The notes under the pieces were generated by a model. The model made no database searches. It saw only the letters and a list, made by a program, of their open reading frames with translations, and was not told where the DNA came from. This document shows positions 3,119-16,233 of a stretch of 63,048 nt of DNA, one piece after another. Location of the stretch: positions 1-63,048 of the forward strand of contig JAHITZ010000042.1 of the NCBI GenBank assembly GCA_018817405.1, written 5' to 3'. The position numbers and the translations under genes are program-made. The first letter of the stretch is position 1, and every line of letters begins with the position of its first letter. This DNA comes from Nanobdellota archaeon (lineage in GTDB: Archaea > Nanobdellota > Nanobdellia > Pacearchaeales > GW2011-AR1).

Positions 3119-4102
3119 ATGGCGGAAAAAGAAAAACCAATCAGAGAAAAATCAATACCTGATTACAAAAAAGACCTTGTTGTTGAAATAGCTAACAAAA
3201 TAAAATCAAACAGAACTGTTCTTGTAGCCTCAACAAAAAGTTTGCCTGCTTCGCAGTTTCAGAAAATAAAAAAAAGTTTGAGAGGAAAGGTTGAGATTAT
3301 AGTTGCTAAAAAATCTATAATTTTGAGGTCGATATCTGGAATAGAGAAAGGAGCCTTACAAAATCTCAAGAAGCAGGTTGGCGCAGATGTCTGCTTGATT
3401 TTTTCTGATGTGGGCGCGTTTGAACTTTCTGCTTTGTTGGGTGATAATCAAAGTGCAGCGAAAGCTAAGGCAAGAGACATTGCTCCTTTAGATATTAATA
3501 TTGAAGCTGGTCCAACTGACTTGATACCTGGCCCGGCAATTTCAGAACTTGGAAGTGTGGGGCTGAAGGTAACAGTTGAAAACGGAAAATTAACAATAAA
3601 ACAAGGAGCAACAATTGTTAAAGAAGGAGAAATTATCAAAGAGAACGTTGCAAATGTCATGGGCAAGTTAAATATTACACCCATGAAAGTTGGTTTTATT
3701 CCCATTGCAGCTTATGATGCTGAAGATGATACTGTTTATACAGAAATTAAAATTGATAAAGAAGGAGCCTTGCAAGAATTGAGAGAATCTGTTGGGAAAG
3801 CATTTGGTTTTGCTGTGGGCGTTTACTATGTTGTGAAAGAAACTGTTAAGTACTTTATTTCAAAAGCTGGGAAGGAGGAGAATGCTTTGGAGAAGAAGGT
3901 TGGGGGGAAAGGAGAAGATGAGGGTGAAAAGAATGCGGACGGTGGGGAGAGGGGTGGTGAGAAGAAGGAAGATAAAGAAGGCGATGAGAAAGAAGAAAAG
4001 ACGCCGGAGAGCGAGGGCGTGGAGGAAAAAGGTGGGGAAAAATCAGCTAAAAAGAAAAAGGAAGAAGAAAATTCTGAAGAAAGTAAGGAGAAAGAAAAAT
4101 GA
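3119..4102 (+). CDS. rpl10: Ribosomal stalk protein P0 (uL10) with charged tail
   Basis: P0 anchors L12 dimers to the ribosome and binds next to L11. Residues to about 110 form the rRNA-binding domain, followed by the archaeal/eukaryotic insertion domain (DINIEAGPTDLIPGPAISEL) and the helical L12-binding spine. From about residue 255 the protein is almost entirely Lys/Glu/Gly. The usual archaeal P0 ending, a conserved hydrophobic factor-binding motif resembling the L12 tip, is absent. The stop overlaps the next gene by 4 bases (ATGA). Confidence 0.94.
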   Translation: MAEKEKPIREKSIPDYKKDLVVEIANKIKSNRTVLVASTKSLPASQFQKIKKSLRGKVEIIVAKKSIILRSISGIEKGALQNLKKQVGADVCLIFSDVGAFELSALLGDNQSAAKAKARDIAPLDINIEAGPTDLIPGPAISELGSVGLKVTVENGKLTIKQGATIVKEGEIIKENVANVMGKLNITPMKVGFIPIAAYDAEDDTVYTEIKIDKEGALQELRESVGKAFGFAVGVYYVVKETVKYFISKAGKEENALEKKVGGKGEDEGEKNADGGERGGEKKEDKEGDEKEEKTPESEGVEEKGGEKSAKKKKEEENSEESKEKEK

Positions 4103-4317
4103 CTAACGAAGATCAATTAAGGGAACTTGACGCACAGTTTACAACTGAGTTAACAGCAAGAAATTATTTAAAAGCAAATGATATTAATAATTCTAGATTG
4201 ATGTTATCTTCTCAAGGACCTGTTGAAGTTAGCAGATTGGTTAGATATTACAAAGCTAGGGCGCAAGACCTTGCTGAAATTCTTGCTCAAAAAAATACAA
4301 GGGAGGGAAGTCAATAA
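4099..4317 (+). CDS. Small unknown protein inside the ribosomal stalk operon
   Basis: A 72-residue soluble protein of unknown family sits exactly between P0 and L12. It overlaps the P0 stop by 4 bases and its own stop shares one base with the L12 ATG (TAATG). Such double coupling argues that it is real and made in proportion to the stalk. It is predicted largely helical (LRELDAQFTTELTARNYLKA, then YKARAQDLAEILAQ). No metal-binding or membrane motif is seen. A role in stalk assembly or regulation is inference from position only. Confidence 0.75.
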   Translation: MTNEDQLRELDAQFTTELTARNYLKANDINNSRLMLSSQGPVEVSRLVRYYKARAQDLAEILAQKNTREGSQ

Positions 4318-4601
4318 TGGAATATATTTATGGAGCTTTGTTGTTGCATAAGCTTGGACAGCCAGTTAACGAGGACAACTTGAAAAAAGTTATAGCTGCG
4401 ACTGGCGCGCAGATTGATGAAGCGAAAGTTAAAACACTTATAGCGAGCTTGCAAGGCGTTGACATTGCGGCAGAACTTGAAAACGCGAGTGTGTTAGCAG
4501 CAGCACCTGCACAAGTAGGAGAGGCAGCACCAAAGAAAGAAGAAAAGAAAGAAGAAAAGCCAAGCGAATCAGCTGCTGGTTTATCAGCACTCTTCGGTTA
4601 A
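4317..4601 (+). CDS. rpl12: Ribosomal stalk protein L12 (P1)
   Basis: This archaeal L12/P1 homodimer binds P0 and recruits elongation factors. The N-terminal dimerisation domain starts MEYIYGALLLHKLGQ. It is followed by a short Ala-rich hinge, a Lys/Glu stretch and the factor-binding tip GLSALFG. At 94 residues it is slightly shorter than most archaeal L12 (100-105). It is the last gene of the L1-P0-L12 unit; a T-rich stretch follows the stop. Confidence 0.96.
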   Translation: MEYIYGALLLHKLGQPVNEDNLKKVIAATGAQIDEAKVKTLIASLQGVDIAAELENASVLAAAPAQVGEAAPKKEEKKEEKPSESAAGLSALFG

Positions 4602-4602
4602 A

Positions 4603-4624
4603 CTTTTAATTGTTTTTTATTTTA
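4603..4624 (+). terminator. T-rich terminator after L12
   Basis: Two T-runs (ACTTTTAATTG, TTTTTTATTTTA) follow directly after the L12 stop with no strong hairpin. This is the usual form of intrinsic termination in archaea. Confidence 0.5.
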
Positions 4625-4768
4625 CCAACAAGGTACGTTTACTTAAATCTATTCTTAAGAATGTTAACTAAAGAGGTTTATTTTAAGAGGGGAGTTAAGA
4701 ATTATTATTTCTAAATATCTATGTTGAGATATAATAAACCATTTAAATGAGATTATTTGATTATACGT

Positions 4769-5026
4769 ATGAAAACACGAGATGATAAATATACTCCTTT
4801 AGACAGAAGGGGAGAGGGAGATAGTTTTTTAGGATTTATGAGGGAAGATAGAATAGAAGATAAATTAAGAACGAAAGAAATGGTTGGTTTTATTGGATAT
4901 CTAGCTATTTTGGCAGTAGGTGGGGCTTGTTTTTTGTATAGTCTTAAAGCAAGTGACCAAAGCCAAGACTCAATTCTTTCAGAAAGACAGACAGTTCTGG
5001 AACATGATGTGAAGAGAGATAGATAA
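4769..5026 (+). CDS. Small single-pass membrane protein, unknown
   Basis: From ATG 4769 this gives 85 residues. A charged cytoplasmic N-terminus (~40 residues) is followed by one hydrophobic helix (MVGFIGYLAILAVGGACFLY) and a charged C-terminus of ~25 residues with an SQD segment. There is no cleavable signal. A TATA-like GATATAATAAA lies near 4724-4734; a TTG at 4757 is an alternative start. The function is unknown. Confidence 0.6.
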   Translation: MKTRDDKYTPLDRRGEGDSFLGFMREDRIEDKLRTKEMVGFIGYLAILAVGGACFLYSLKASDQSQDSILSERQTVLEHDVKRDR

Positions 5027-5149
5027 CATTAAATATTTAAAGTGATTCTATATTTTTAGAACCAAAAAAAGTTTATAAATTTGCAACTTCTGTATTCTAC
5101 CTATAAAATAGAAACGGATAATTATCAACCTGATTACTTGAATGGGAGA

Positions 5150-5324
5150 ATGTATCTTTTAAAAGAAGGGAGGATGTGTTAGAATAGAATCTAACGGAGA
5201 CGATTGTTATACAATGTATCTCTCAAGACCTAAATTTGTGAAATGGAGGCAAGTGGTGAAGCGAGAGGATGCAAGAGGTTTATTGAGACAGATGGGTGCT
5301 GAGTTTAATTCTAAAAGTTTATAA
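5150..5324 (+). pseudogene. Possible small frameshifted gene
   Basis: A TATA box (CCTATAAAATAG, about 5100) precedes ATG 5150, whose frame stops after 10 residues at TAG 5180. In the +1 frame the sequence is open to TAA 5322-5324 and includes ATG 5214, which would give a 36-residue basic peptide (MYLSRPKFVKWRQ...). Read together with a +1 change they make about 57 residues. It may be a decayed gene, a short ORF from 5214, or chance. Confidence 0.3.
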
Positions 5325-5350
5325 GTTGTTAAAACTCTGAATATTTGTAT

Positions 5351-5434
5351 GCCAGCGTGGCGGAGTGGTCTAACGCGTCGGTCTTGAAAACCGATTCCCT
5401 CACGGGAGCAGAGGTTCGAATCCTCTCGCTGGCG
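5351..5434 (+). tRNA. tRNA-Ser (anticodon UGA)
   Basis: The acceptor arms GCCAGCG (5351-5357) and CGCTGGC (5427-5433) pair, and the discriminator is G 5434. The anticodon stem-loop TCGGT-CTTGAAA-ACCGA gives UGA. A class II variable arm (CCCTCACGGG) and the T-arm with GGTTCGAATCC complete a serine tRNA. No intron or encoded CCA is seen. A TATA box (AGTTTATAAG, about 5316-5325) lies 26-30 bases upstream. Confidence 0.97.
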
Positions 5435-5524
5435 TCAAGGATTCGAAGGGTCAGGCGGTGGAAGGTTCGACGAGCTTTGAGATTCTGGCTAATGTTTATC
5501 AACTTCAGAAGTTCAAAGCGAGCA

Positions 5525-5537
5525 CTCTCGCTGGCGT
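5525..5537 (+). repeat. 13-bp direct copy of the tRNA-Ser 3' end (possible attachment-site scar)
   Basis: CTCTCGCTGGCGT here is identical to 5423-5435, the last bases of tRNA-Ser plus one. The copies are 102 bp apart. Integrating elements that use tRNA genes leave such a 3'-end duplication. With only 13 bp and a short interval, this can be at most a remnant. Confidence 0.4.
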
Positions 5538-5619
5538 TGTAAGAAACCTTATCGGTTTCCGTCAAGAACTGAAAGTTCTTGAGGAAAAAAGTTGTACGCA
5601 TCAAAAAACTATAAATGAA

Positions 5620-5653
5620 CAACCCCTCCCTAAAGGACGAGGTATCAGGAACT
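5620..5653 (+). repeat. IS200/IS605-like right-end relic 1
   Basis: The core AACCCCTCCCTAAAGG... forms a small hairpin (CCT...AGG) followed by GAGGTATC. This matches the general layout of IS200/IS605 right ends: AATTCNTC or CCCCTC, a hairpin, then GTATC. It lies just after the two hairpins at 5543-5582, so the block may be the 3' part of a former TnpB/omega-RNA unit. No tnpB is present. Confidence 0.35.
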
Positions 5654-5808
5654 AAAACAAAAATGTTAACAGACACACAAAATCCACAAAGAAAAGATTT
5701 AATATTTAATTACGTCAAGAACCAAAGATTCTTGAGCGCATCCAAGAATCGCATTATTTGGGATTCTTGGTGTCTTAGATTTATTGATTATCAATTAAAT
5801 TTTGAGGA

Positions 5809-5853
5809 CCCAATTCCTCGCTCTGCTTTAGAGTGGAAGTATCCTTGCCGTTG
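5809..5853 (+). repeat. IS200/IS605-like right-end relic 2
   Basis: The layout is CCCAATTCCTCG, an imperfect hairpin (CTCT...AGAG), then GAAGTATCCTTG. It closely resembles the block at 33160-33202 (CAATTCCTCGCTC...GTATC) in order and spacing. No transposase gene accompanies it. Confidence 0.45.
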
Positions 5854-5899
5854 ATATAATAAATTTGCTCTGCAAATCTTGTTCACTTTACAATGCTAC

Positions 5900-6181
5900 T
5901 CAGGGCTGGTTCTTGCCAAAAAACCTTTTCCAGCCCCTCTTCTTTTCCTCAACTTTTGGTTCATCTTCAACCACCTCATACTTTATCTCTGGCTTTGTTT
6001 TTAGAATTGGGGCAGATTCAGCCATTTCTAAATCAACGCGGTTCAATGCTTTTTCAATTTCTATTTTTGAGTAGCCCTGATTAATCAAAGCCCAACGCAA
6101 TGATTCTTTTGTGTATCCTTTTTTTAAATTCCTTTTTATATAGTTAATTAATTCTTTCATCAAATTTCTTTTTTTGAACAT
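5900..6181 (-). CDS. Small UBA-like helical protein, unknown
   Basis: From ATG 6181 this gives 93 residues. That start lies 25 bases from a TATA box (AATATATAAAG on the plus strand, 6201-6211), implying a leaderless mRNA. The middle resembles a three-helix UBA-like domain (GYTKESLRWALINQGYSKIE, IEKAL), and the tail is charged and basic. The same pattern occurs in the membrane protein at 32643. It may bind a partner protein; the function is unknown. Confidence 0.65.
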   Translation of the reverse strand: MFKKRNLMKELINYIKRNLKKGYTKESLRWALINQGYSKIEIEKALNRVDLEMAESAPILKTKPEIKYEVVEDEPKVEEKKRGWKRFFGKNQP

Positions 6182-6322
6182 TTGATTATTTGACAAGAGG
6201 AATATATAAAGTTTCGTTAATAGATTCACTAATATCCAACCACCAATTAGATTATCATAAAACCAGATTACTTGAGTGAAGGATTACTTGTGGGGATTTC
6301 TTGTTGAAGGGTTTACTTAATA

Positions 6323-7795
6323 TCAAGATAAGATTATAGGTCTTGTTTGCCTGTAAAATTTAATTCCTGCGTTGAGCTTTTTCTTTGACTCCGAGTAGAG
6401 AGTTAAAAGTTTTTCTCCTTTTTTTATCTTGTCATTTACATGCTTGTAAAGATATAACCCTGCTGCTTTGTCTGTCGGGCAACCAAGTATTCTGGCTAGA
6501 TGGTTAATTAACTTGTTATCTGTTGATTTTACTTTTCCTGAATGTTTTCCGAGGATATTGTGTTTAAACTTTGCAAGTTTTAATGTTTTTTTCTTTTTCC
6601 CCTGGGCAGAAATGATTTCTTCAAATTTTTTTAATGCTCTTCCAGAATCTAAAATTTTCTCTGCCATTTCTTTTCCTTTTCCTTTTTTTGCTTTTTTAGT
6701 CATTTCAAGAAGGTGTGATGCAAGAAGGATTGATTTTTTTTCTAAATCAAGGGGTCTTCCATGTTTTCTTTTCAAAATTTTGTAAACATCAATCATCTCT
6801 AAAACAGGACCAACTGCATTTCCAATTGGCTGAAAACCAGGAGTTAAAACAACTTTGAGATTTAATTTAAAATGATTAGAAATTTTTAGAAAATGTTGTT
6901 TTAGTTTTTTTGCTTGTGCAAAACTGACTTTTGCCCCTTTGCCGTATGGAACGTCCAGCAAAATGAATTTGCTTCCGGTTGCAATTTTTTTTGATAAAAT
7001 TGAAGCAATGAGCTGTGGTTCTGGGTCAAGGTTAAGCATTTTTTCTACTCTTATTAATTTGTCGTCTGCTGGAGCTAATCCGAGAGAGCCGCCCCATGCA
7101 AGGCAAGCATTGGTTTTGCGTACAACTTTTTGTAAATCATATACTGATAAAGAGATATTTGTTACAGCTTCCATGACGTCGGCTGTAGCGGCGGCAGTTG
7201 TTATTGCTCTTGATGAAGTTTTTGGTATTGTAATACCTGCTGCAGCGCATATTGCTACGACTAGGGGTGTTGTTCTATTCCCAGGAATTCCTCCTATTGA
7301 ATGTTTGTCTGCAATTTTCTTTTCTTTCCATTTTAGTATTTGTCCTGTATGTGCCATTGCCTCAGTTAAGTAGATTATTTCTTTAACTGACATTCCATTG
7401 TGATACACGCCCGTAACGAAATAAGCAATCTCAGCCTCGTTTAAAGCATTGTTTACAATATCTTCTATTATCACATGAATTTCTTTTTTGGATAATTCAA
7501 GATTATTTACTTTTTTGAGAATAAATCTCGTGCTTCTTGGTTCCAACGCAACTGAAATTTCTATTTTTTCCCCTTTTTTAATTTTAAAATTAGAGATTGC
7601 TTCTTCTGAGAGAGAAATCTCTTTTTCTGAGAGTAATTTTTTTATAATGTTAACAGAGAGGATTAGTTTTGTGCCTTTGTGAGATATCTCTATCCTGCTT
7701 CCCTCAATGATATTCAATTTTTTAGCAAATTTTCCGTTGATAAATGCTATTGGCCGACCAGCTTCAAGATGCATTGGCTTGAATTTTAGTTTCAT
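6323..7795 (-). CDS. deoA: AMP phosphorylase (archaeal thymidine-phosphorylase family)
   Basis: The enzyme phosphorolyses AMP (also CMP/UMP) to base plus ribose 1,5-bisphosphate. This is the first step of the archaeal pathway that feeds form III RuBisCO through R15P isomerase. The 490-residue product has the archaeal N-terminal extension (~1-85), then the nucleoside phosphorylase core with ADKHSIGGIPGNRTTPLVV, TSSRAITTAAATADVMEA and GSKFILLDVPYGKGAKV. The length matches archaeal AMP phosphorylases (~500). No R15P isomerase or RuBisCO gene lies in the window. It is transcribed alone. Confidence 0.93.
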   Translation of the reverse strand: MKLKFKPMHLEAGRPIAFINGKFAKKLNIIEGSRIEISHKGTKLILSVNIIKKLLSEKEISLSEEAISNFKIKKGEKIEISVALEPRSTRFILKKVNNLELSKKEIHVIIEDIVNNALNEAEIAYFVTGVYHNGMSVKEIIYLTEAMAHTGQILKWKEKKIADKHSIGGIPGNRTTPLVVAICAAAGITIPKTSSRAITTAAATADVMEAVTNISLSVYDLQKVVRKTNACLAWGGSLGLAPADDKLIRVEKMLNLDPEPQLIASILSKKIATGSKFILLDVPYGKGAKVSFAQAKKLKQHFLKISNHFKLNLKVVLTPGFQPIGNAVGPVLEMIDVYKILKRKHGRPLDLEKKSILLASHLLEMTKKAKKGKGKEMAEKILDSGRALKKFEEIISAQGKKKKTLKLAKFKHNILGKHSGKVKSTDNKLINHLARILGCPTDKAAGLYLYKHVNDKIKKGEKLLTLYSESKKKLNAGIKFYRQTRPIILS

Positions 7796-7843
7796 TTTTT
7801 TGTGGATTTGAAAGGAGGGTTGGCTTAAAAAACGTTTTCTTTT

Positions 7844-7955
7844 TGTTAAATCAAGTTTCCGATTGAACAGGGATTTGAGAATGAATACATGATTACATCT
7901 TTAATATTATCCAACCCCTCTAATTATTAATAATAAATCTGTCCTGTGGATTCAC
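7844..7955 (+). repeat. Dispersed repeat, copy 1
   Basis: The shared cores are GTTAAnTCAA, TTGAACA, GATTTGAGAATGAATACA, TTATCCAACCCCT and ATTATTAATAATAAATCT. All three copies (this one, 8832-8984 and 32447-32605) lie on the same strand and between genes. This copy loses similarity after the AATAAATCTGTC core. It has no conserved ORF: the ATG inside is followed by different stops in each copy. Confidence 0.75.
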
Positions 7956-8048
7956 CGAATCTCTCCTACATCCAACTAAAAGGAGTATATTCTACTTCTA
8001 TAAATTTATTACAACAATGATTATAAACTTTTGAAGTTATTGTTTTGT

Positions 8049-8609
8049 ATGAGAGTAAGAGAGACAAATAAAAAAGATATTGAAGAGAAGTTTTTGGAAA
8101 TGAGTGAGTATATGAGTATGGATTACCTTGCTAGTTGCCTAAAGAATCATCTTGACTTTGATACGAGAAAGTTTGTTTTGGTCAAACTGTCTGGGCTTTT
8201 TGAAGCAAAGGCGATGTTTTTAGATGCCGCTAAAGCAATGAAATCTGCTGCAGAGATTAACACAAATAAGCAAAATAAGATTAATGATTTTACTAAATCT
8301 GGAGAGCTTTTTATCCGTGGAGGAGATTACGACAGAGCAGATATTTGCATGAAAAAAGCAACCTCGCTTGCTGAGGGAAAACAAACCGAAGAAGTAAAGG
8401 GAATGATAAAAGAGTTTTATAAAACTCACGCAAGAAGTTGTATTGAAAGAAACAAAAGAAAACAAGCAATTGCAATTTATGAAAAACTTGTAACTTTTGA
8501 TCTTGTTGAAGAAGAGAAAAAAGAATTTGAAAAAAAACTCCTTGAACTGTATGAAGGTGTTGGTGACTTAGACAGGTACAAGAAGTTGCAGAGACGGATT
8601 TCTAATTAA
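8049..8609 (+). CDS. Helical repeat (TPR-like) protein, unknown
   Basis: From ATG 8049 this gives 186 residues; a TATA-like TTATAAAC lies about 24 bases upstream, implying a leaderless mRNA. The protein is all-helical with at least three tetratricopeptide-like units (FEAKAMFLDAAKAMKSAAEI, FIRGGDYDRADICMKKATSL, RNKRKQAIAIYEKLVTFDLV). It has no signal or membrane segment and probably serves as a protein-interaction scaffold. It stands alone between two repeat copies. Confidence 0.75.
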   Translation: MRVRETNKKDIEEKFLEMSEYMSMDYLASCLKNHLDFDTRKFVLVKLSGLFEAKAMFLDAAKAMKSAAEINTNKQNKINDFTKSGELFIRGGDYDRADICMKKATSLAEGKQTEEVKGMIKEFYKTHARSCIERNKRKQAIAIYEKLVTFDLVEEEKKEFEKKLLELYEGVGDLDRYKKLQRRISN

Positions 8610-8642
8610 AAATAAATAAACCTCCGAAGAGGTTAAAAAAGA

Positions 8643-8753
8643 TTAATCGCCTATAGAAGAATCAAGCCCGTCAATAAGGTCTTCAACTTCAAAGTCGAAT
8701 TCTTCTTCAGGCATTGCCTCAGGGTTTTTCTCTTCTAACACCTTTTTTACCAT
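8643..8753 (-). CDS. Small acidic protein (36 residues), unknown
   Basis: The frame from ATG 8753 encodes 36 residues that are strongly acidic after a short basic start (MVKKVLEEKNPEAMPEEEFD...). A TATA-like CTTTAAATACTT lies upstream on the same strand. It converges on the TPR-like gene. The codon pattern looks coding, but its small size leaves doubt. Confidence 0.45.
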   Translation of the reverse strand: MVKKVLEEKNPEAMPEEEFDFEVEDLIDGLDSSIGD

Positions 8754-8831
8754 TTTCCTCTTTTTCTTTTTTCTGCATCTTAAAGTATTTAAAGTTTGCC
8801 TCTTGATAATTAAACGCACGTTTTGAGAAGA

Positions 8832-8984
8832 CTGTTAAGTCAATTTCTCAATCGGACACTGGATTTGAGAATGAATACAAGATTGCAGCTTCAACATTAT
8901 CCACGTCCCTAATTATTAATAATAAATCTGTCTTGTTGTTTATTAAGTGTATCATAGTTTCCAGTTTAAATGTTTGTTTCACAA
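8832..8984 (+). repeat. Dispersed repeat, copy 2
   Basis: This copy has the same cores as copy 1. Its similarity to copy 3 extends about 45 bp further (GTTTATTAAG, CAGTTTAAATGTTTG, TTTCAC), which defines a longer unit of about 150-160 bp. Confidence 0.75.
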
Positions 8985-9006
8985 AAACAGCTTTGTCCTG
9001 AGTAGA

Positions 9007-9090
9007 GTGATTTCACTAAATTTGGGGTTGGGCAGGGGGTGGAAGGCGGGTTTTCGATGACAGTCGAACTTAGTAGGAATACGAAATCAC
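9007..9090 (+). ncRNA. Candidate structured RNA with a G-rich core
   Basis: GTGATTTC (9007-9014) pairs with GAAATCAC (9083-9090). Next to it ACTAA (9015-9019) pairs with TTAGT (9070-9074), leaving an 8-base bulge on one side. Inside are a hairpin TTCGA/TCGAA (9053-9057, 9064-9068) and a run of G-tracts (GGGG, GGG, GGGGG, GGCGGG) striking for this AT-rich genome. No ORF fits. A TATA-like box lies about 45 bases upstream. The family is not recognised. Confidence 0.45.
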
Positions 9091-9160
9091 CAAAGTCTTA
9101 TTATTCCGGACAACTCCACAAAAACACAACCTTTAAAAAACCCCTGAAATTAAATGTGGT

Positions 9161-9298
9161 ATGGCGCAGTATAAATGTTTTGAATGTGAGAAGTCAATCA
9201 GCAGCAAGGTCTTAGAAAAGAGATTTGTCTGCCCTCATTGCGGTTCTAGAATATTTTACAAGCCAAGGAATAAGATAGTTAAATTGAAAGCAATCTGA
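9161..9298 (+). CDS. rpo12: RNA polymerase subunit Rpo12 (RpoP)
   Basis: This 45-residue zinc-ribbon subunit of archaeal RNA polymerase is the homologue of eukaryotic Rpb12. Two CxxC pairs (CFEC near the start, CPHC mid-protein) bind zinc, followed by the basic SRIFYKPRNK end typical of the family. It starts at ATG 9161, and prefoldin beta begins two bases after its stop. That gene pair is common in archaea. Confidence 0.93.
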   Translation: MAQYKCFECEKSISSKVLEKRFVCPHCGSRIFYKPRNKIVKLKAI

Positions 9299-9300
9299 TT

Positions 9301-9639
9301 ATGAATCCTGATTTAGAGATTAATAAAAAAATAGAAGAATTGCAGGTTCTTGAGAGTCATCTTCAGAGGATTTTAGCTCAAAAGCAAAGTGTGCAGATAG
9401 AACTTAATGAAATTGATAATGCTCTTGAGGAATTAAAAAATTCTGATGAAGAGGCTTACAAAATTGTCTCAGGGTTTATGATAAAGTCTACAAAGGATAA
9501 ATTAGGAAATGAATTAAAAGAGAAAAAGAAATTGTTTGAAATGAGAATGGAGTCTGTAGAAAAGCAAGAAGAAATAATTGAGAAGAATGCGGAAAAATTA
9601 AGGGAAGAGGTTAAATCTGTTGTTTCTAAGGGTAAATAA
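9301..9639 (+). CDS. pfdB: Prefoldin subunit beta
   Basis: This is the beta subunit of the hexameric chaperone prefoldin, which delivers unfolded proteins to the thermosome. The 112-residue protein is two long coiled-coil helices joined by a short beta hairpin (EEAYKIVSGFMIKSTKD), the standard layout. It is co-transcribed with rpo12. The alpha partner is at 38026. Confidence 0.92.
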   Translation: MNPDLEINKKIEELQVLESHLQRILAQKQSVQIELNEIDNALEELKNSDEEAYKIVSGFMIKSTKDKLGNELKEKKKLFEMRMESVEKQEEIIEKNAEKLREEVKSVVSKGK

Positions 9640-9826
9640 GGAAAAATAAGGTCTATGAAAACCGAATGCATTTGATATACTGCAGGAGATAATTATTATA
9701 GAACTATCTTCTTTGAAGCTGTTGTTTGGTATAATCTTTCTGATAAAACAGGTTGGCTGTTTTTCTTATACTACAAGTCGTCTGCCATACAATAATATTT
9801 ATATAGTCTGGTAGCGGAAAAGATTT

Positions 9827-10204
9827 ATGGCTTTTAATTTCAAAGGAATGTTTGGAAAGGGTGAAGAGGAAGAATATATTGAGCTTGACCTTGATTCTGT
9901 TGCACCTCAAGAAAATAAGGTGATTGTTAAGCCGTTCGTTTTAAGAGATTATGACGGAACGGAAGAAATTTTAAATTCTTTAAGAACAGGTTATACAATT
10001 GCAATCATTGATATCAAACCATTAAAAACAAAAGATATAATTGAACTGAAAAGGGCCATTTCAAAGATAAAAAAGACAGTTGATGCTTTAGAAGGAACAA
10101 TTGCAGGTTTTGGAGATAGTATAATTCTTGCAACGCCACAGTTTGCGCAGGTCCATAAGCCGACTGCTCCGCAGAAGAAGAGTAAGCTGGATTATTTTGG
10201 TTGA
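9827..10204 (+). CDS. sepF: SepF-like cell division protein
   Basis: Archaeal SepF anchors FtsZ to the membrane. The N-terminus is a short amphipathic membrane-targeting segment (MAFNFKGMFGKG), followed by an acidic linker. The compact SepF core at about 35-110 contains VKPFVLRDYDGTEEILNSLR and a GTIAGFGDSIILATP strand. The length of 125 is normal. A TATA box (AATATTTATATAG) lies about 29 bases upstream. FtsZ itself is not in the window. The mobile element begins 64 bases after its stop. Confidence 0.9.
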   Translation: MAFNFKGMFGKGEEEEYIELDLDSVAPQENKVIVKPFVLRDYDGTEEILNSLRTGYTIAIIDIKPLKTKDIIELKRAISKIKKTVDALEGTIAGFGDSIILATPQFAQVHKPTAPQKKSKLDYFG

Positions 10205-10268
10205 TTTTTGGAGTGAATAGTTATTTGGTTTTTTTGTATATTCTTCTCTAGAATGGTAAAACAGATAG

Positions 10269-10292
10269 TACATTGTTAACTTAGCGGTTGGT
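10269..10292 (+). repeat. Left terminal inverted repeat of the transposon
   Basis: It begins TACATTGTTAACTTAGCGG and matches the reverse complement of 15189-15212 except for one G/A difference. It is preceded directly by the target duplication AACAGATAG (10260-10268). Confidence 0.92.
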
Positions 10293-10336
10293 AAAACAAA
10301 CTACAAAAATATTTAAACACAAAACTCATATTTTTA

Positions 10337-10430
10337 TCATGGTTACGGCACAGAGGGATTTCTGCTAACTTTAACATCCTAAATTAAGTTAGTTCTAACC
10401 TCTCTGTGCCGATTTCCGAGTCACCCAAAC
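10337..10430 (+). ncRNA. Candidate hairpin RNA at the transposon left end
   Basis: CGGCACAGAG (10346-10355) pairs with CTCTGTGCCG (10402-10411), and inside TAACTT pairs with AAGTTA. This makes a long two-part hairpin. A TATA box about 25 bases before 10337 would start a transcript here, and no ORF of any length fits. It might be a regulatory or leader RNA of the element, or a transposase-binding structure. Confidence 0.4.
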
Positions 10431-10573
10431 CTTTAAATATATAATAGATATATGTTTTCTCAAGGATGTTAAGGTTGGAATAGCAACTACAAGGTCGTTG
10501 TTGCTTGTAGCTTGACAAACTTATGTTTACCAAAGAGGTGAACATTAAATTAAATTGCAGGAGGAAAAAATAA

Positions 10574-11515
10574 ATGCAAAAACAAATAGAAGTGAAGACA
10601 GAGCAAGGCATTAATCTAAGCCAAAGAATAATTATGCCGACACATAGAGAGCTGTTGAAGTCAAAGCAGTATAATCTGCCGATAGTTTCTCTAAGTCCGT
10701 TTGCTGTTTTTGTTAAGAAAATGGCTTCAACGCAGAGACATAATTGGACAGGCAACGTTAATGTTGATAAGCAAGCGATACAAGAGGTATGCAAGGATTT
10801 TGGTTCATACGATTTCTTAATAAATTTTCAGTTTAAGAAACAAATTGACTTTAATCAAAGTGAGATGGATTACTTAGAGCAAGTTCAACAAATCCCAGAA
10901 CTGTCGTATATCTGCATGAATGAAAAAAGTGCAAACCAAACGGCACAGGAATTTGAACAACAACTTAGTGGCTGGAAATTACGAAACACTGGAAAGTTCA
11001 TCGTTCCAGTTATAGAATCTTCAACCAATGAAAAAGTTAAGAAAGTCGCAATAATGAAACGAGAAGGTATAAGGAGATGTGCCATTATTTTCCGAAGTTT
11101 TATAACCGAAGATGACAGAGCAGATTTAAGCCGAATATTAGCCAACCTAAGAATAGCCAATATCTATTCAATGGTCTTCGGAGTTAATCCGAAAAAATGG
11201 TCTAAGACTGCGGCTTCAATGTATCTTCCGCCATTACAATTTGAAGCAAACGCCATATCATCTTGGATTGCGTGGGGCGGGGCAAAAGTTCCATTAGAGC
11301 TTTTATGTTCCGACTGGATTTATAGATTGTCCGATTCTGCCGACGCTGGTCTTGCGAGTTACAATGGTTCTGGTAGAAAGAATTTTCTTACTGGGAATTC
11401 AAGCGTAGCTTTCAATACAGCATTAAGCCAGATTGACACAGTAAACCAAGCGAGCTTACTAGCACAAAACTTTGTCTTACTGCCCGAAGTTCAATTTAAA
11501 CGCCTCTTCAACTGA
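10574..11515 (+). CDS. Unknown 313-residue protein of the transposon
   Basis: The family is not recognised. The protein appears soluble and alpha/beta, with no signal or membrane segments and no zinc motif. It contains hydrophobic strands (GKFIVPVIESS, RRCAIIFRSF, NIYSMVFGVNP) spaced as in a barrel or Rossmann-like fold. It starts at ATG 10574 behind a good GGAGGA, unlike the leaderless genes around it, after a structured leader of about 110 bases. The 3' end overlaps the convergent gene at 11477 by 39 bases. It may be an accessory transposition or defence gene. Confidence 0.8.
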   Translation: MQKQIEVKTEQGINLSQRIIMPTHRELLKSKQYNLPIVSLSPFAVFVKKMASTQRHNWTGNVNVDKQAIQEVCKDFGSYDFLINFQFKKQIDFNQSEMDYLEQVQQIPELSYICMNEKSANQTAQEFEQQLSGWKLRNTGKFIVPVIESSTNEKVKKVAIMKREGIRRCAIIFRSFITEDDRADLSRILANLRIANIYSMVFGVNPKKWSKTAASMYLPPLQFEANAISSWIAWGGAKVPLELLCSDWIYRLSDSADAGLASYNGSGRKNFLTGNSSVAFNTALSQIDTVNQASLLAQNFVLLPEVQFKRLFN

Positions 11516-11707
11516 TTGGTTTTTGTCTGGGTAATAATCCCAAACATTAATCCATAATTTGTTGAGGTATTTTTTTATTTTATTTTTCTCTTTCTTTTTT
11601 ATTTCATTATTTTTAAATTTTCTTTCCAGTTTTGCGTCTGCTAAGTCTAATGCAAAAACTCTTTTTTCCCATTCAAAATATTTATCGTCGTTTTTTCTTA
11701 TTTCCAT
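11477..11707 (-). CDS. Small basic protein downstream of the ribbon-helix-helix gene
   Basis: From ATG 11707 this gives 76 residues, strongly Lys-rich in the middle, then aromatic (LWINVWDYYPDKNQ). It overlaps the end of the upstream ribbon-helix-helix gene by about 26 bases, and its 3' end overlaps the gene at 10574. The order regulator-then-small-protein resembles a toxin-antitoxin pair, but no toxin family is recognised. Confidence 0.55.
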   Translation of the reverse strand: MEIRKNDDKYFEWEKRVFALDLADAKLERKFKNNEIKKKEKNKIKKYLNKLWINVWDYYPDKNQSVEEAFKLNFGQ

Positions 11708-11861
11708 TTTCAATTAGCTTTAGTTTATTGGAGAATAGCCAAGCGTGGACAATCTCTTGGAGTAGTTTGGATTCTTTCATGGCGTATTTTTCCAATGCTT
11801 TATTGAACAAATCAAAATCATCTTGTTCCAATGTAAACTTTATCTGTCTATCCGATGGCAT
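11682..11861 (-). CDS. Ribbon-helix-helix DNA-binding protein
   Basis: From ATG 11861 this gives 59 residues: a short beta strand (RQIKFTLEQ), then two helices (DDFDLFNKALEKYAM and KESKLLQEIVHAWLFSN). This is the size and order of a ribbon-helix-helix repressor or antitoxin. The TATA box on its strand (AATATATAAA, about 11881-11890) is 25 bases upstream, so it is leaderless. Three 22-bp-spaced copies of GTAGCTAC overlap that promoter, suggesting autorepression. Confidence 0.65.
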   Translation of the reverse strand: MPSDRQIKFTLEQDDFDLFNKALEKYAMKESKLLQEIVHAWLFSNKLKLIENGNKKKRR

Positions 11862-11869
11862 TATTTAAG

Positions 11870-11921
11870 GTAGCTACTTTAATATATAAAAGTATCTACT
11901 TTAATTAATAGTAGTAGCTAC
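11870..11921. promoter_or_regulatory. Divergent promoter with three operator repeats at 22-bp spacing
   Basis: GTAGCTACTTTAA (11870), GTATCTACTTTAA (11892) and GTAGCTAC (11914) begin exactly 22 bp apart, two helical turns. The TATA of the minus-strand ribbon-helix-helix gene lies between the first two. The plus-strand TATA (GGTTTAAATATAA, about 11934) for the gene at 11965 lies just beyond the third. A repressor bound here could control both directions. Confidence 0.65.
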
Positions 11922-11964
11922 GAAGTATAGAAAGGTTTAAATATAAGATATATCTATTATATAC

Positions 11965-12132
11965 ATGGAAGAAAAAGTTAAGGAAGCGAAGAAAATTAAA
12001 GACGAATTAGATAAACTCGGAATTGAAGTTATCTTAGAAATAGAAGTAACTGCTTTCGGAACATCGGCTCACATCCCAATATCAAAAAAATTTATCGGGA
12101 GGAAAGTGTCAATAATCGTGCCAAAAGAATAA
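11965..12132 (+). CDS. DUF2080-like transposon-associated protein
   Basis: This 55-residue protein has a charged N-terminal helix followed by the compact motif IEVTAFGTSAHIPISKKFIG. It resembles the small archaeal DUF2080 proteins found next to transposases (pattern FG-SAHI-P-K-iGk-V). A TATA box 25 bases upstream makes the ATG leaderless. A hairpin at 12148-12165 separates it from the transposase gene. Confidence 0.7.
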   Translation: MEEKVKEAKKIKDELDKLGIEVILEIEVTAFGTSAHIPISKKFIGRKVSIIVPKE

Positions 12133-12147
12133 TCATATTAAATTAGA

Positions 12148-12165
12148 GGGGAGCCGAAGCTCCCC
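12148..12165 (+). terminator. Strong GC hairpin between DUF2080 gene and transposase
   Basis: GGGGAGC-CGAA-GCTCCCC is a perfect 7-bp stem with a tetraloop. It lies 15 bases after the DUF2080 stop and 24 before the transposase ATG. It could be a terminator or attenuator that limits transposase expression, or could hide the ribosome-binding region. Confidence 0.55.
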
Positions 12166-12189
12166 GTATTCACCCAACGCTTAAATCAG

Positions 12190-13134
12190 ATGAAATACAA
12201 AAATCATAACCAAACCAAGTATAAAAAAGTATTGTGTCCTAATTGTAATTCTGCCGAAACAATCAAATGGTGCAAGAGAAAAACGCAGAACCGAGGAGAA
12301 ATACAGCGATACAAATGCAAGTCGTGTAACTCGTGTTTTACGCCTGACGATGGATTTTTCAGAATGAGGAACACGCCACAAAAGGTGAGCCAGAGCATAG
12401 ACTTATTTTACAGAGGAGTAAGCACAAGAAAAGTCCAAGAGCATTTAGCTATCTTCCATCCCCACAACGCTTCTAATGTTTCAATTTACAAATGGGTTGT
12501 TAAGTATTCTAAGATGATAAGCAAGTTTACGAACAAGCTAAAAGTTACAGTAAGCGGAGAAGTTCAAGTTGACGAAATGGAATGCCACAGAAGAATAAGC
12601 CACAAGGCAAAAAGAGGAATAGATAAAAACTGGTTCATTGACAGCATAGACCCAGAGACGAAGTTTTTAATTTCTGGCGAGTATTCAAAGACAAGAGGAA
12701 AGCGAGACATTAAAGCAGTTGTTTCAAAGATAAAAGAAAGGACAGAAAACCAAATACAGATGGTTACGACAGATGGGCTTTTGACGTATCCAAAGGTGAT
12801 TAAGTCTGTTTGGGGTTACAATCATAAGTTAAAGAGATGTAATGTTTTTCATAACAAAGTTAACGCCTCAAAAGGCGAGGGCTTTAACCATCCAATAGAA
12901 AGACTGCACAACAGCGTAAGAGCGAGAACAAAAGTTATGCGTGGATTTCACGGCTCCATTAATTCCGCTAATGCTATTTTGAAGGGCTACGAGATTTATT
13001 ACAACTTCATAACTAAACATCAAGCGATTAAGAAATGTCCTTATGAGTTGGCTATTCCTGAATTGGCTTTGGCTCTGGAAAACGAGAAAAACCGATGGCT
13101 CGGACTAATTAAACTAAGCAACATAAACAATTAA
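12190..13134 (+). CDS. DDE transposase with N-terminal zinc ribbon
   Basis: The 314-residue product probably catalyses movement of the element. The N-terminus has a zinc ribbon (CPNC ... CKSC, residues ~16-43) and a helix-turn-helix region to ~110. The DDE core follows: D in VQVDEMECHRR, D in VTTDGLLTYP and E in NHPIERLHNSVRARTK. The layout is closest to archaeal IS6/IS240-like enzymes, with IS1 as the alternative. No frameshift or truncation is seen. The methyltransferase ATG is only 3 bases after the stop, so both are probably on one mRNA. Confidence 0.88.
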   Translation: MKYKNHNQTKYKKVLCPNCNSAETIKWCKRKTQNRGEIQRYKCKSCNSCFTPDDGFFRMRNTPQKVSQSIDLFYRGVSTRKVQEHLAIFHPHNASNVSIYKWVVKYSKMISKFTNKLKVTVSGEVQVDEMECHRRISHKAKRGIDKNWFIDSIDPETKFLISGEYSKTRGKRDIKAVVSKIKERTENQIQMVTTDGLLTYPKVIKSVWGYNHKLKRCNVFHNKVNASKGEGFNHPIERLHNSVRARTKVMRGFHGSINSANAILKGYEIYYNFITKHQAIKKCPYELAIPELALALENEKNRWLGLIKLSNINN

Positions 13135-13137
13135 AAA

Positions 13138-14385
13138 ATGAAGAAACACTATAATCTTATGATAGAAAAAGAGCAAGAGAGTTTCATAAATTGGGATTTC
13201 AAAGAAGCGGAAACTAAACAGTTCACTCACGGCTATCATACTTATCCAGCCATGATGATACCCCAGATAGCAAGAAGGTTAATTTATCTCTATGGTAAGA
13301 ACGCTAAAACCCTCTTAGACCCGTTCTGTGGCTCTGGCACGTCTATAGTTGAAGCGTCTTTAACTCCGCAAATTAAAGAGGCGTTCGGCTTTGACCTAAA
13401 CCCCCTCGCTGTTCTGATTGCGAAAGTTAAAACGACTCCATTGGACACGGCGGAGTTAGGGAGGATATTAGATAAGTTATTAGTCGCTCAAGGACACAAC
13501 GGCGTTCCAGATTTCAAGAATATAGAATTTTGGTTTAAGCCACAAGTAACCGAAAGGTTGGCAACGTTGAAAACTGCAATAAACAAAATCAAGAACAAAG
13601 ATGTTAAAGACTTCTTCTTGGTTGCGTTTTCCGAGACTGTTAGGAACGTATCAAACACAAGGAATGGCGAGTTTAAACTTTACAGGATGGCAGAGAAAAG
13701 TTTAGAGAAGCATAACCCATGGGTCTTTAAAGAATTTGAGAAGATAGTATTAAAGAATATTCATGGAATGAAAGAATACAACAAAGCAAGACACAAGACA
13801 AAGACTACTGCCACACTGGGAAGCAGTATGTTAGACTTGCCGTTGAAACCGCAGAGCATTAATTTAATCGTAACTTCTCCACCTTACGGTGACAGCAGAA
13901 CAACTGTGGCTTATGGGCAGTTTTCAAGGTTGGCTTTACAATGGTTAGACTATGAAGATGTGGCAAGTTTAGACAATCGGCTTATGGGTGGAAAAGCCAG
14001 CAAAGAATTAGAAGTTAAAATAAACTCCCCAACCCTCAAAAGCATTATAAAAGAAATTGCAGAGAAAGACGAGAAGAGGGCAAGAGAAGTTTTAAGTTTC
14101 TACGATGACTTTGACCAATGCGTTGACCAGCTAAACAAAGCTATGGCTAAAGACGGCTATGTTTGTTTTGTTGTTGGGAACAGAACCGTTAAAGGAGTGA
14201 ATATCCCAACGGACAAAATAATGGCGGAGATGTTTAAAGCAAAAGCAGACTACGAGCATATTACAACTCATTTACGTAATATTCCAAACAAAAGAATGCC
14301 CTCATTAAACTCTCCAACAAACAAGGTAGGCGAGAAAGTAACGACAATGTGCAACGAGTTTATTTTTGTTCTTCGGAAGAATTAA
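13138..14385 (+). CDS. DNA methyltransferase (N4-cytosine/N6-adenine type)
   Basis: The 415-residue modification enzyme has the AdoMet-binding motif DPFCGSGTSIVEAS at about 61-74, then GFDLNPLAVLIA. The catalytic motif TSPPYGDS is at 246-253; SPPY is usual for m4C enzymes. AdoMet-binding before the catalytic motif is a known order of part of the family. It pairs with the endonuclease at 14382: the genes converge and overlap by 4 bases. MvaI/BcnI partners are m4C enzymes of CCNGG sites, but the target here cannot be read from sequence. Confidence 0.88.
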   Translation: MKKHYNLMIEKEQESFINWDFKEAETKQFTHGYHTYPAMMIPQIARRLIYLYGKNAKTLLDPFCGSGTSIVEASLTPQIKEAFGFDLNPLAVLIAKVKTTPLDTAELGRILDKLLVAQGHNGVPDFKNIEFWFKPQVTERLATLKTAINKIKNKDVKDFFLVAFSETVRNVSNTRNGEFKLYRMAEKSLEKHNPWVFKEFEKIVLKNIHGMKEYNKARHKTKTTATLGSSMLDLPLKPQSINLIVTSPPYGDSRTTVAYGQFSRLALQWLDYEDVASLDNRLMGGKASKELEVKINSPTLKSIIKEIAEKDEKRAREVLSFYDDFDQCVDQLNKAMAKDGYVCFVVGNRTVKGVNIPTDKIMAEMFKAKADYEHITTHLRNIPNKRMPSLNSPTNKVGEKVTTMCNEFIFVLRKN

Positions 14386-15152
14386 TCTAATTCAGTTATA
14401 GAAAACACCTTGCTTAAGTTATTTTTGTTTATCCTAAAACCTGAGCCGTGGTCGTGATTTTTCCCGATTAGCTTAGGGTTTTTAGTTTTCCTATAAACTC
14501 CCAGTCTAAAGTCATATTTTATTATTCCTTGCTTTGTAAAGTCCAAAAACTTATCAAATGTTAAACCAGACAATAGAACCGCTTTGTTAAACCTAAACAT
14601 CTCTTTTCCATTTTGTTTTTTACGCTCTGCACTGATAAAGATAATATACTTGCATTTATGTTCAACTATTTCTCTTAATTTTTCAAACGGATAAAAAGCA
14701 GTTATAGAAGCGTCTATTGTATCTTGTTCAAGATTTTTAATTTTGATAAATATTTTTTCTTCTGCTTTGCTAATGTCCAAAAGGAAACCAAACTTTCCCT
14801 TAGATGTGTTAAATTTGTCTGCGGAAAAGGTTGTATGTAAAATCTTTGAGTCTCTAAATTCTTCATCAAAATATCCAAAAGTTTCCCGTATAATGCTATT
14901 AACTCCTCTTGGGTTTGGAGATTTTGTAAATAACGTAACCATCGCCTGAGACAATTCTCTTGCAGACTTTAACTCAATCACTCCCTTATAGTCCGCGGAA
15001 TCTTTATTATTTTCTATAACTCCTAACAAATCTTCTGCTGTCTTTCCTATCCCTGTATCGTGAAACCTTCTTGAATCAATAAAGCCCATCTGTTTCAACT
15101 TTTCAAATTCTATTTTGAACTCTTCTAATACCTGCTTTTCAGAGGATTTCAT
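14382..15152 (-). CDS. MvaI/BcnI-family restriction endonuclease
   Basis: This 256-residue endonuclease belongs to the MvaI/BcnI family, whose members nick or cut CCWGG/CCSGG as monomers. The family core is visible: DTGIGKTAEDLLGVIENN, then D54, E60 and K62 in ADYKGVIELKSAR as the PD-(D/E)xK site, then TLFTKSPNPRG. A TATA-like AGTTTAAAG lies about 25 bases before the ATG and inside the right end of the element, so the gene has its own promoter facing inward. Confidence 0.88.
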   Translation of the reverse strand: MKSSEKQVLEEFKIEFEKLKQMGFIDSRRFHDTGIGKTAEDLLGVIENNKDSADYKGVIELKSARELSQAMVTLFTKSPNPRGVNSIIRETFGYFDEEFRDSKILHTTFSADKFNTSKGKFGFLLDISKAEEKIFIKIKNLEQDTIDASITAFYPFEKLREIVEHKCKYIIFISAERKKQNGKEMFRFNKAVLLSGLTFDKFLDFTKQGIIKYDFRLGVYRKTKNPKLIGKNHDHGSGFRINKNNLSKVFSITELD

Positions 15153-15188
15153 AAAAAACAGAGATAAGACAACCCTTTAAACTTTTCC

Positions 15189-15212
15189 ACCAACCGTTAA
15201 GTTAACAATGTA
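15189..15212 (-). repeat. Right terminal inverted repeat of the transposon
   Basis: It ends GTTAAGTTAACAATGTA and is the reverse complement of 10269-10292 with one mismatch. The target duplication AACAGATAG follows at 15213-15221. Confidence 0.92.
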
Positions 15213-15255
15213 AACAGATAGTGAAGTTTAAATACCCAAATTTTCTAAAAAAACC

Positions 15256-15730
15256 ATGAGAGAAAGTATAGATCGAGAAATAAATACCTGCCGTGATGTC
15301 TTAGAACAAACGTTAAAAAGAGTAGGTGATCTCCATTCAGCTTGGGAAATGTTTTCCCCTAATAACAACAATGTTCTGCTTCGTTGTTTAAAATATAGCC
15401 TTACTAGAGGTGAAAGGGACTATGCCGAAGCGCATTACATTGACGTAGAAAGACCATCAGGCCCGGCTCAGGATGTCACTGAGGTTCTTACAATTCTAAA
15501 CTCAGCAGCCAATAACTTTTACGATGCTGGGAGCAATAGCAGCCCAATTAATGGTCCCAGACACTGCAGCCCTCGCTTTCAGAAGCGCAGCAGACTGTTA
15601 CAGATCAATGCAAGATTGGGTAGAAAATCCACAAACCTGGATGCTTAAAAGGGAACATCAAATGATAGATCTAAGTGTTGCATGTGGAAGAGAATCAGTA
15701 CAAATCGCAGAAATCCAAAACAGAAATTAA
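15256..15730 (+). pseudogene. Unknown helical protein with a +1 frameshift
   Basis: The frame from ATG 15256 reads well to about residue 90 (TILNSAANNFYDA), then becomes unlike normal protein and stops at 15648. From about 15525 the +1 frame continues the helical pattern (LGAIAAQLMVPDTAALAFRS) to TAA 15728-15730. Together they give about 157 residues of unknown function. The frame break falls near GATGCTGGGAGC. It lies right beside the transposon. It may be decay, sequence error or frameshifting. Confidence 0.55.
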
Positions 15731-15864: not shown

Positions 15865-16233
15865 CTATTTCTTAGCCAAGGAAAAAACAGTCTTCAAGGC
15901 AACAATAATTGTTGCAGGGACAAACATAACCAATAAAGCGCCTAGGACTGAAGAAACTATTCTTCCTATTGCAATGCCTCTGATTGCAGCGTCTAACACA
16001 AGACCTTGAATTCCTGCAAAACTAACTATTACTAAAGATACAGAAGCAAGAAGAAAAGTTTGGACTTCTTTTTCTGAGACGAAATAGCCTGCAACTAAGC
16101 CAAGCAGTGCGAGAATACCTAAGAGAAGGGGATTGGTTTGGTTTCTTCCGAAGATTCCTACCGAAACTGCAAGAATCATTCCAATTAAAAAGGCCCAAGC
16201 CCCAATCAGATTCTCTTGGTATTTTATTGGCAT
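15865..16233 (-). CDS. Small four-helix membrane protein, unknown
   Basis: This 122-residue integral membrane protein has four hydrophobic segments (about 9-28, 35-52, 58-78 and 92-117) and short loops. It has no conserved polar or catalytic residues that suggest transport. It is transcribed alone and converges on the broken gene at 15256. It resembles small hypothetical membrane proteins common in DPANN genomes. Confidence 0.7.
   Translation of the reverse strand: MPIKYQENLIGAWAFLIGMILAVSVGIFGRNQTNPLLLGILALLGLVAGYFVSEKEVQTFLLASVSLVIVSFAGIQGLVLDAAIRGIAIGRIVSSVLGALLVMFVPATIIVALKTVFSLAKK

Follow-up and report, generated by a model that had tools for sequence, protein, structure and literature searches.

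Insertion sequences (IS) that carry passenger genes have been described under the name tIS, with one IS6 example given (PMC7986276). In bacteria, restriction-modification (R-M) systems occur on mobile elements–for example, the IS-linked PaeR7I system, the PluTI element and a transposon-like R-M element of Rhizobium–and have been considered as selfish addiction units (PMC3031569 and works cited there). Among archaea, thaumarchaeal IS-like transposons hold one or two genes (PMC6563490). Here we describe a 4944-bp transposon at positions 10269-15212 of a 63,048-nt stretch of DNA (the window; contig JAHITZ010000042.1) from a Nanobdellota archaeon, with an R-M pair among its genes. Like casposons and the thaumarchaeal transposons, it is an archaeal integrated element with duplications; it differs from casposons, which use Cas1 and not a DDE enzyme, and from the thaumarchaeal transposons with their one or two genes. 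Mobilisation by a transposition-type mechanism is shared with the bacterial mobile R-M systems, but those are IS-flanked or single cases, whereas in the archaeal family reported here R-M genes are internal cargo, repeatedly exchanged, and methyltransferases are coupled to the transposase. The original prediction for this DNA somewhat overstated the rarity of R-M genes inside transposon ends, because bacterial cases are known (PMC3031569), and what it had found is larger than it knew. The transposon family and the coupling are apparently undescribed: we found no paper on R-M-carrying transposons of DPANN archaea or on this family, in a search that mostly stopped short of the subscription literature.

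A transposon enclosing a restriction-modification pair

The window element is bounded by 24-nt inverted repeats that match at 23 of 24 positions, TACATTGTTAACTTAGCGGTTGGT on the left (10269-10292, + strand) and its counterpart on the right (15189-15212, − strand). The ends begin TACATTG, so that the tip is TA, and a perfect 9-bp target duplication, AACAGATAG, is read directly on either side (10260-10268 and 15213-15221). An 11-bp duplication, AAACAGATAGT, would fit the flanks too, in which case the ends would start at ACATTG; we set the length at 9 bp because 38 sister elements have 9. When the whole window was scanned for 9-bp direct repeats around 24-bp inverted ends, the only match at ≥19/24 was this element, and the same scan on 20 Markov-1 shuffles of the window gave none at that level (best 17/24). 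The ends and duplication are beyond chance, and the predicted intact transposon holds base for base. Every reading frame of the element is intact, and its gene content is as foreseen: a DDE transposase, a methyltransferase, an MvaI/BcnI-like endonuclease and four small or other genes, three of which (ORF313, ORF78 and ORF59) fall into no clear family.

The transposase gene (12190-13134, +) encodes an N-terminal Zn ribbon with C16, C19, C43 and C46 intact, and a domain matching PF13610 above its cut-off. The catalytic residues D128, D195 and E237 are invariant across 18 relatives. The sequence has no match in the PDB; an AlphaFold model (mean predicted local distance difference test score, pLDDT, 71) matches ISCth4, TnsB and MuA. 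The RNase-H fold and D-D-E residues of a DDE transposon are thus present alongside its inverted ends and duplication of constant length.

The transposase does not fall into an established family. Like tIS elements, IS6, IS1595 and IS1, the present family has one DDE transposase per element between short inverted ends, with duplications of 8-9 bp, passenger genes and, as in IS1595, a Zn ribbon. It differs in that the window transposase scores below the NCBIfam cut-offs for IS6 (70 bits against 125), IS1 (35.6 against 100) and IS256, the ends begin TACATTG and not GG, and no element of the family is shorter than 2 kb. IS6 elements have a length of ~800 bp, GG tips and an 8-bp duplication (PMC7986276), set against 4944 bp, a TA tip and 9 bp here. 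IS1595 elements have a Zn ribbon, a DDE_Tnp_IS1595 domain and an 8-bp duplication, with GG tips as given for relatives (PMC8101967, PMC12561309); the window transposase has a Zn ribbon scoring 23.2 bits against a cut-off of 28 and no Pfam match to the ISXO2/IS1595 DDE domain, besides its TA tip and 9-bp duplication. Some distant sisters (L113, L119 and L121; L numbers denote loci) do combine GG tips with an 8-bp duplication. Judged by curated cut-offs and IS1595 features, the transposase resembles several of IS1, IS6, IS256 and IS1595 yet belongs to none.

Next to it lies a DNA methyltransferase gene of N4/N6 type (13138-14385, +; PF01555, 5e-12; PADLOC MTase_II, 2e-142) with the motifs TSPPY and DPFCGSGT, followed by a convergent endonuclease gene (14382-15152, −; PF15515, 1.8e-48). 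The endonuclease aligns with R.MvaI over nearly its full length (E = 4e-38) and retains the PD-ExK residues (ADYKGVIELK). This homology with catalytic residues, and an adjacent methyltransferase with motifs I and IV, predict a type II R-M system of MvaI/BcnI type, whose recognition site, judging from R.MvaI, would be CCWGG-like. Known MvaI/BcnI systems share the nearly full-length alignment and the catalytic residues; the difference lies in the three transposon-borne copies (window, L127 and L132), whose methyltransferases are 76-79% identical but whose MvaI/BcnI-type endonucleases are only 31-36% identical. The endonuclease ATG lies 60 nt inside the element end, and a TATA-like sequence, AAAAGTTTAAAGG (15174-15186, −), borders the right repeat on its inner side; as a putative promoter, it is consistent with a leaderless archaeal message for the endonuclease.

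The element lies beside sepF. We compared the sepF neighbourhoods of nine congeners, reaching only about 1.5 kb on either side. In most of them a homologue of the gene at 15865-16233 adjoins sepF or lies within about 1 kb of it with no element between, so the element-free gene order that had been anticipated is there. The gene at 15256, proposed as the neighbour at the empty site, was the wrong choice: it has no tblastn homologue in these sepF loci, and the conserved right-hand neighbour is 15865-16233. To the right of the element, the interval 15256-15730 holds two overlapping open reading frames (ORFs), possibly a single gene split by a frameshift.

A cargo-carrying family in Nanoarchaeia

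An automatic search for ends and an exact duplication at transposase loci recovered 53 different complete elements with related transposases and ends, 38 with 9-bp and 15 with 8-bp duplications, ranging from 2.07 to 7.82 kb. Their hosts are Pacearchaeota, Woesearchaeota and other Nanoarchaeia. L015, one of the 15 with 8 bp, has a transposase of the 9-bp clade. The end criterion was passed by 68 of 120 real loci and by 6 of 360 shuffled ones. All 53 elements have TG at end positions 6-7, but the filter itself required this, which leaves only the remaining end consensus as independent evidence. The left end, with ≤3 mismatches allowed, has matches in 10 of 93 related genomes, and the transposase profile in 103 of 378 genomes of the class. 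Searched against the named genome collection, the profile found 35 loci, all in metagenome-assembled genomes (MAGs) of DPANN archaea (Pacearchaeota, Woesearchaeota, Nanoarchaeota) or of unspecified archaea, apart from one distant match in Thermoplasmatota. On sequence grounds, this is a large, cargo-carrying family that occurs in Nanoarchaeia (DPANN). The reading frames of joined flanks, taken over all elements, gave no clean restored gene, because most insertions are intergenic.

The same ends enclose other cargo, as the original prediction had proposed to look for, in many elements–for example, L012 (in the window's genus; 5561 bp, duplication CTAATCTCT, transposase 75% identical to the window's), L016 (2653 bp, AATAAAAAG, with a ParE-type toxin pair) and L018 (4334 bp, ATATTTTAG, with another R-M system). 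The L018 transposase gene (3713-4615) has one in-frame TAG in the Zn-ribbon region and is otherwise open. The window genome itself has another complete copy whose cargo differs (L058; 3225 bp, GTGAAATGG, transposase 87% identical) and a third transposase close to a contig end (L076). Elsewhere in this genome (L013; G000:C38), a lone terminal repeat at 4494-4570 stands next to a type IIG R-M gene (1014 aa) that probably starts about 60-75 nt inside the end; neither a second end nor a transposase was found on that contig.

There is no minimal IS among the 53 elements: each is longer than 2 kb and so has space for cargo. An IS-type transposase and ends enclose genes unrelated to transposition, as in tIS elements. 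About 40% of the elements carry R-M genes, and the rest toxin-antitoxin genes, transporters and metabolic enzymes. A DNA methyltransferase is present in 23 of the 53, and Pfam or PADLOC recognises a restriction endonuclease in 12 (the window element, L018, L032, L040, L051, L061, L098, L107, L118, L126, L127 and L132). Proteins without assigned identity occupy the endonuclease position in L012 (421 aa), L030 and L042 (181-184 aa) and L066 (256 aa). Other cargo includes the ParE-type pair of L016 and PIN (L119), Fic (L043) and RelA/SpoT (L113) proteins, and also an ABC transporter (L102), radical-SAM proteins (L098 and L106), an aminotransferase (L095) and an LD-carboxypeptidase (L122).

Comparison of transposases with their cargo indicates that R-M modules have been exchanged between transposon lineages. 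Identity to the window methyltransferase is 77.5% for the enzyme of L132, from the same genus, and 76% for that of L127, although the transposases of these two are only 29% and 34% identical to the window's and belong to the 8-bp clade. Conversely, the L012 methyltransferase is only 24% identical to the window's despite 75% identity of the transposases. L107 and L126 have endonucleases and methyltransferases that are both 85% identical, and transposases that are 33% identical; their modules are inverted, on opposite sides of the transposase, and in both the endonuclease abuts an element end. The breakpoints of exchange are visible in closer relatives: L095, L102 and L104 have 90% DNA identity from the left end to the transposase stop (~1295 bp) and beyond it only the right repeat in common, and the window element and L012 are 84% identical up to element position 2799, with nothing comparable thereafter. 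On a quick transposase tree, methyltransferase cargo changed state at least 14 times. The window's genus has about 17 methyltransferase loci of N6_N4 type (grouped by eye), 6 of which adjoin a transposase of this family.

Two virus contigs in IMG/VR bear on how the elements travel. IMGVR_UViG_3300001335_000237 (L152/L153) holds a family element with R-M-like cargo at 5898-9962, without a target duplication; judged from their translations, its neighbours look like portal, protease and capsid genes, and the capsid candidate has no match in the PDB. IMGVR_UViG_3300022916_000003 (L154) holds, at 4037-6602, a transposase remnant, a pair of end-like sequences and a cytosine methyltransferase that has 68% identity to the one on the L018 transposon and may have been domesticated for anti-restriction. 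These contigs suggest that viruses carry family elements. The window methyltransferase had no match in viral contigs, and the transposase none in the plasmid collection.

Gene placement and the remaining genes of the element

Transposase and methyltransferase genes are closely joined. In the window element the junction reads TAA AAA ATG (13132-13140, +), a gap of 3 nt. The methyltransferase follows directly on the same strand in 17 elements, and in 15 of these it starts between −26 and +4 nt from the transposase stop. In the 30 elements where another kind of gene comes next, that gene never starts on the same strand within 4 nt (0/30; Fisher P = 1.8e-10, with related elements treated as independent). 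The coupled methyltransferases span four Pfam families (PF01555, PF00145, PF02086 and PF02384). Beyond the 53 elements, six more loci show the coupling (L057, L071, L087, L046, L115 and L131), although the methyltransferases of L087 and L115 were recognised only by a PP motif and weak similarity. In the remaining six methyltransferase-bearing elements the gene is upstream of the transposase and divergent. Recognised endonuclease genes occupy the outermost position and are directed inward; in 11 of the 12 R-M elements the gene starts 52-63 nt from an element end.

Four other genes occupy the left part of the window element. ORF313 (10574-11515, +) has no match in Pfam, NCBIfam or PADLOC; its homologues are 90% (L012), 40% (L149) and 31% (L031) identical. 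Its structural model is of low confidence (pLDDT 55), with an alternating beta/alpha order, and we dropped a fold assignment because the best structural matches were unrelated enzymes at E of about 0.002. ORF78 (11477-11713, −), a small protein, has similar ORFs at the equivalent place in L031 and L149, so that the convergent, overlapping arrangement of ORF313 and ORF78 is conserved (window 10574-11713, L149 1507-2607, L031 4681-5754); no transposase was seen within the 3.9 kb examined around the L149 pair. Upstream of ORF78, the small protein ORF59 (11682-11861, −) adjoins a palindromic promoter region (11870-11921) and is a possible DNA-binding regulator. A DUF2080 transposon-associated protein (11965-12132, +; PF09853, 6e-7; NF033496, 1.7e-8) precedes the transposase; in another system, antitoxin function has been validated for a DUF2080 protein (PMC10440598).

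Between the left end and ORF313, behind a TATA-like box, lies a strong RNA-type hairpin (10345-10413, +, within a wider region 10338-10425; z = −5.6). Its counterpart in L012 (3314-3402, z = −6.0) differs by stem substitutions that all keep the pairing, and the leaders of the ORF313 homologues in L149 (z = −3.4) and L031 (z = −2.8) also fold better than shuffles. Beyond the window and L012 the hairpin had no match among 56 genomes searched, and an Rfam search of the element gave none. It is possibly an RNA associated with ORF313. The promoter regions of ORF313 (10427-10456) and of the DUF2080-transposase-methyltransferase genes (11931-11963) have an inverted 19-nt sequence in common (95%), perhaps a common operator.

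How the element may work

The window element is best explained as a complete DDE transposon of this family that works as follows, and for this account as a whole we put the probability at roughly 0.82. The transposase would bind the 24-bp ends and insert the element with a 9-bp stagger. The methyltransferase would be translated together with the transposase from a single message, so that protective methylation is supplied whenever transposase is made, and the endonuclease would be expressed separately, from a promoter a short way inside the right end. After the element has settled, the R-M pair would restrict incoming DNA and penalise loss of the element. Replacement of cargo would be wholesale and would affect the slot that runs from the transposase to the right end; recombination close to the terminal repeat and to the conserved 3' part of the transposase gene is the probable route. 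Whereas the anatomy, family, cargo diversity, module exchange and gene spacing are read from the DNA, we infer the activity, the co-translation, the order of expression and the addiction.

Several points weigh against this account. No base-exact empty site was found: the join at one AACAGATAG that had been predicted was not seen, and in the nearest congener (G002) the spacer of about 560 bp does not align with the window flanks, because the sepF spacer has diverged too far for an exact join to be visible. The sequences are from MAGs, with one genome per species. The Fisher value counts kin elements as independent, and inheritance of the junction, or its transfer along with the module, may account for the pattern rather than repeated evolution; transposases at the junction have Q[NS][NISL] tails in common.

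The last point leads to the strongest rival, that the coupling has no function and is a by-product of compact packing, together with a single ancestral junction spread by recombination. We regard this as quite possible, though somewhat short of an even chance. Coupled transposases of both clades tend to share the Q[NS][NISL] tail before the stop, the DNA common to the window element and L127/L132 starts 28-47 nt before the transposase stop, and genes are tightly packed in all elements; yet equally packed downstream genes of other kinds never start codirectionally within 4 nt (0/30), and the junction joins four different Pfam families of methyltransferase. R-M might instead serve mainly host defence, with the transposon merely a vehicle, which we consider somewhat less likely than not. 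R-M is a known antiviral system and many unrelated R-M types are carried, but the toxin-antitoxin, PIN and Fic-type cargo of sisters and the tie between methyltransferase and transposase fit self-maintenance of the element equally well, and the family element and remnant on virus contigs mean that the benefit need not be the cell's. It is unlikely that the window element is a dead relic, immobile although its ends and duplication remain: although it exists in just one exact copy and transposases are broken at other loci (the L018 TAG, and a remnant with stops in G005), its frames are intact, its ends match at 23/24, its duplication is perfect, and divergent copies lie within one genome. Capture of R-M genes between two independent insertion sequences, as in a composite transposon or defence island, is known for IS-flanked R-M in bacteria (PMC3031569) and is highly improbable here, given that transposase gene, pair of 24-bp ends and 9-bp duplication are each present once, and that sisters have the same kind of ends around different contents.

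Returning to the working transposon, we tentatively propose, at somewhat less than even odds, that this DPANN-centred family offers a standard slot, in which any methyltransferase may be placed under transposase translation and its cognate endonuclease at the edge behind a leaderless promoter. Protection would then precede restriction whenever the element arrives in DNA or in a cell that is new to it, including by way of viruses, so very different R-M systems would become self-installing units. This bears on how R-M systems establish themselves without killing a new host, and on why they move so often. The joining of unrelated methyltransferases to the transposase would be a natural design rule, one that is directly testable, and a shared vehicle would let DPANN archaea, with their small genomes, trade genes for defence, toxin-antitoxin systems and metabolism.

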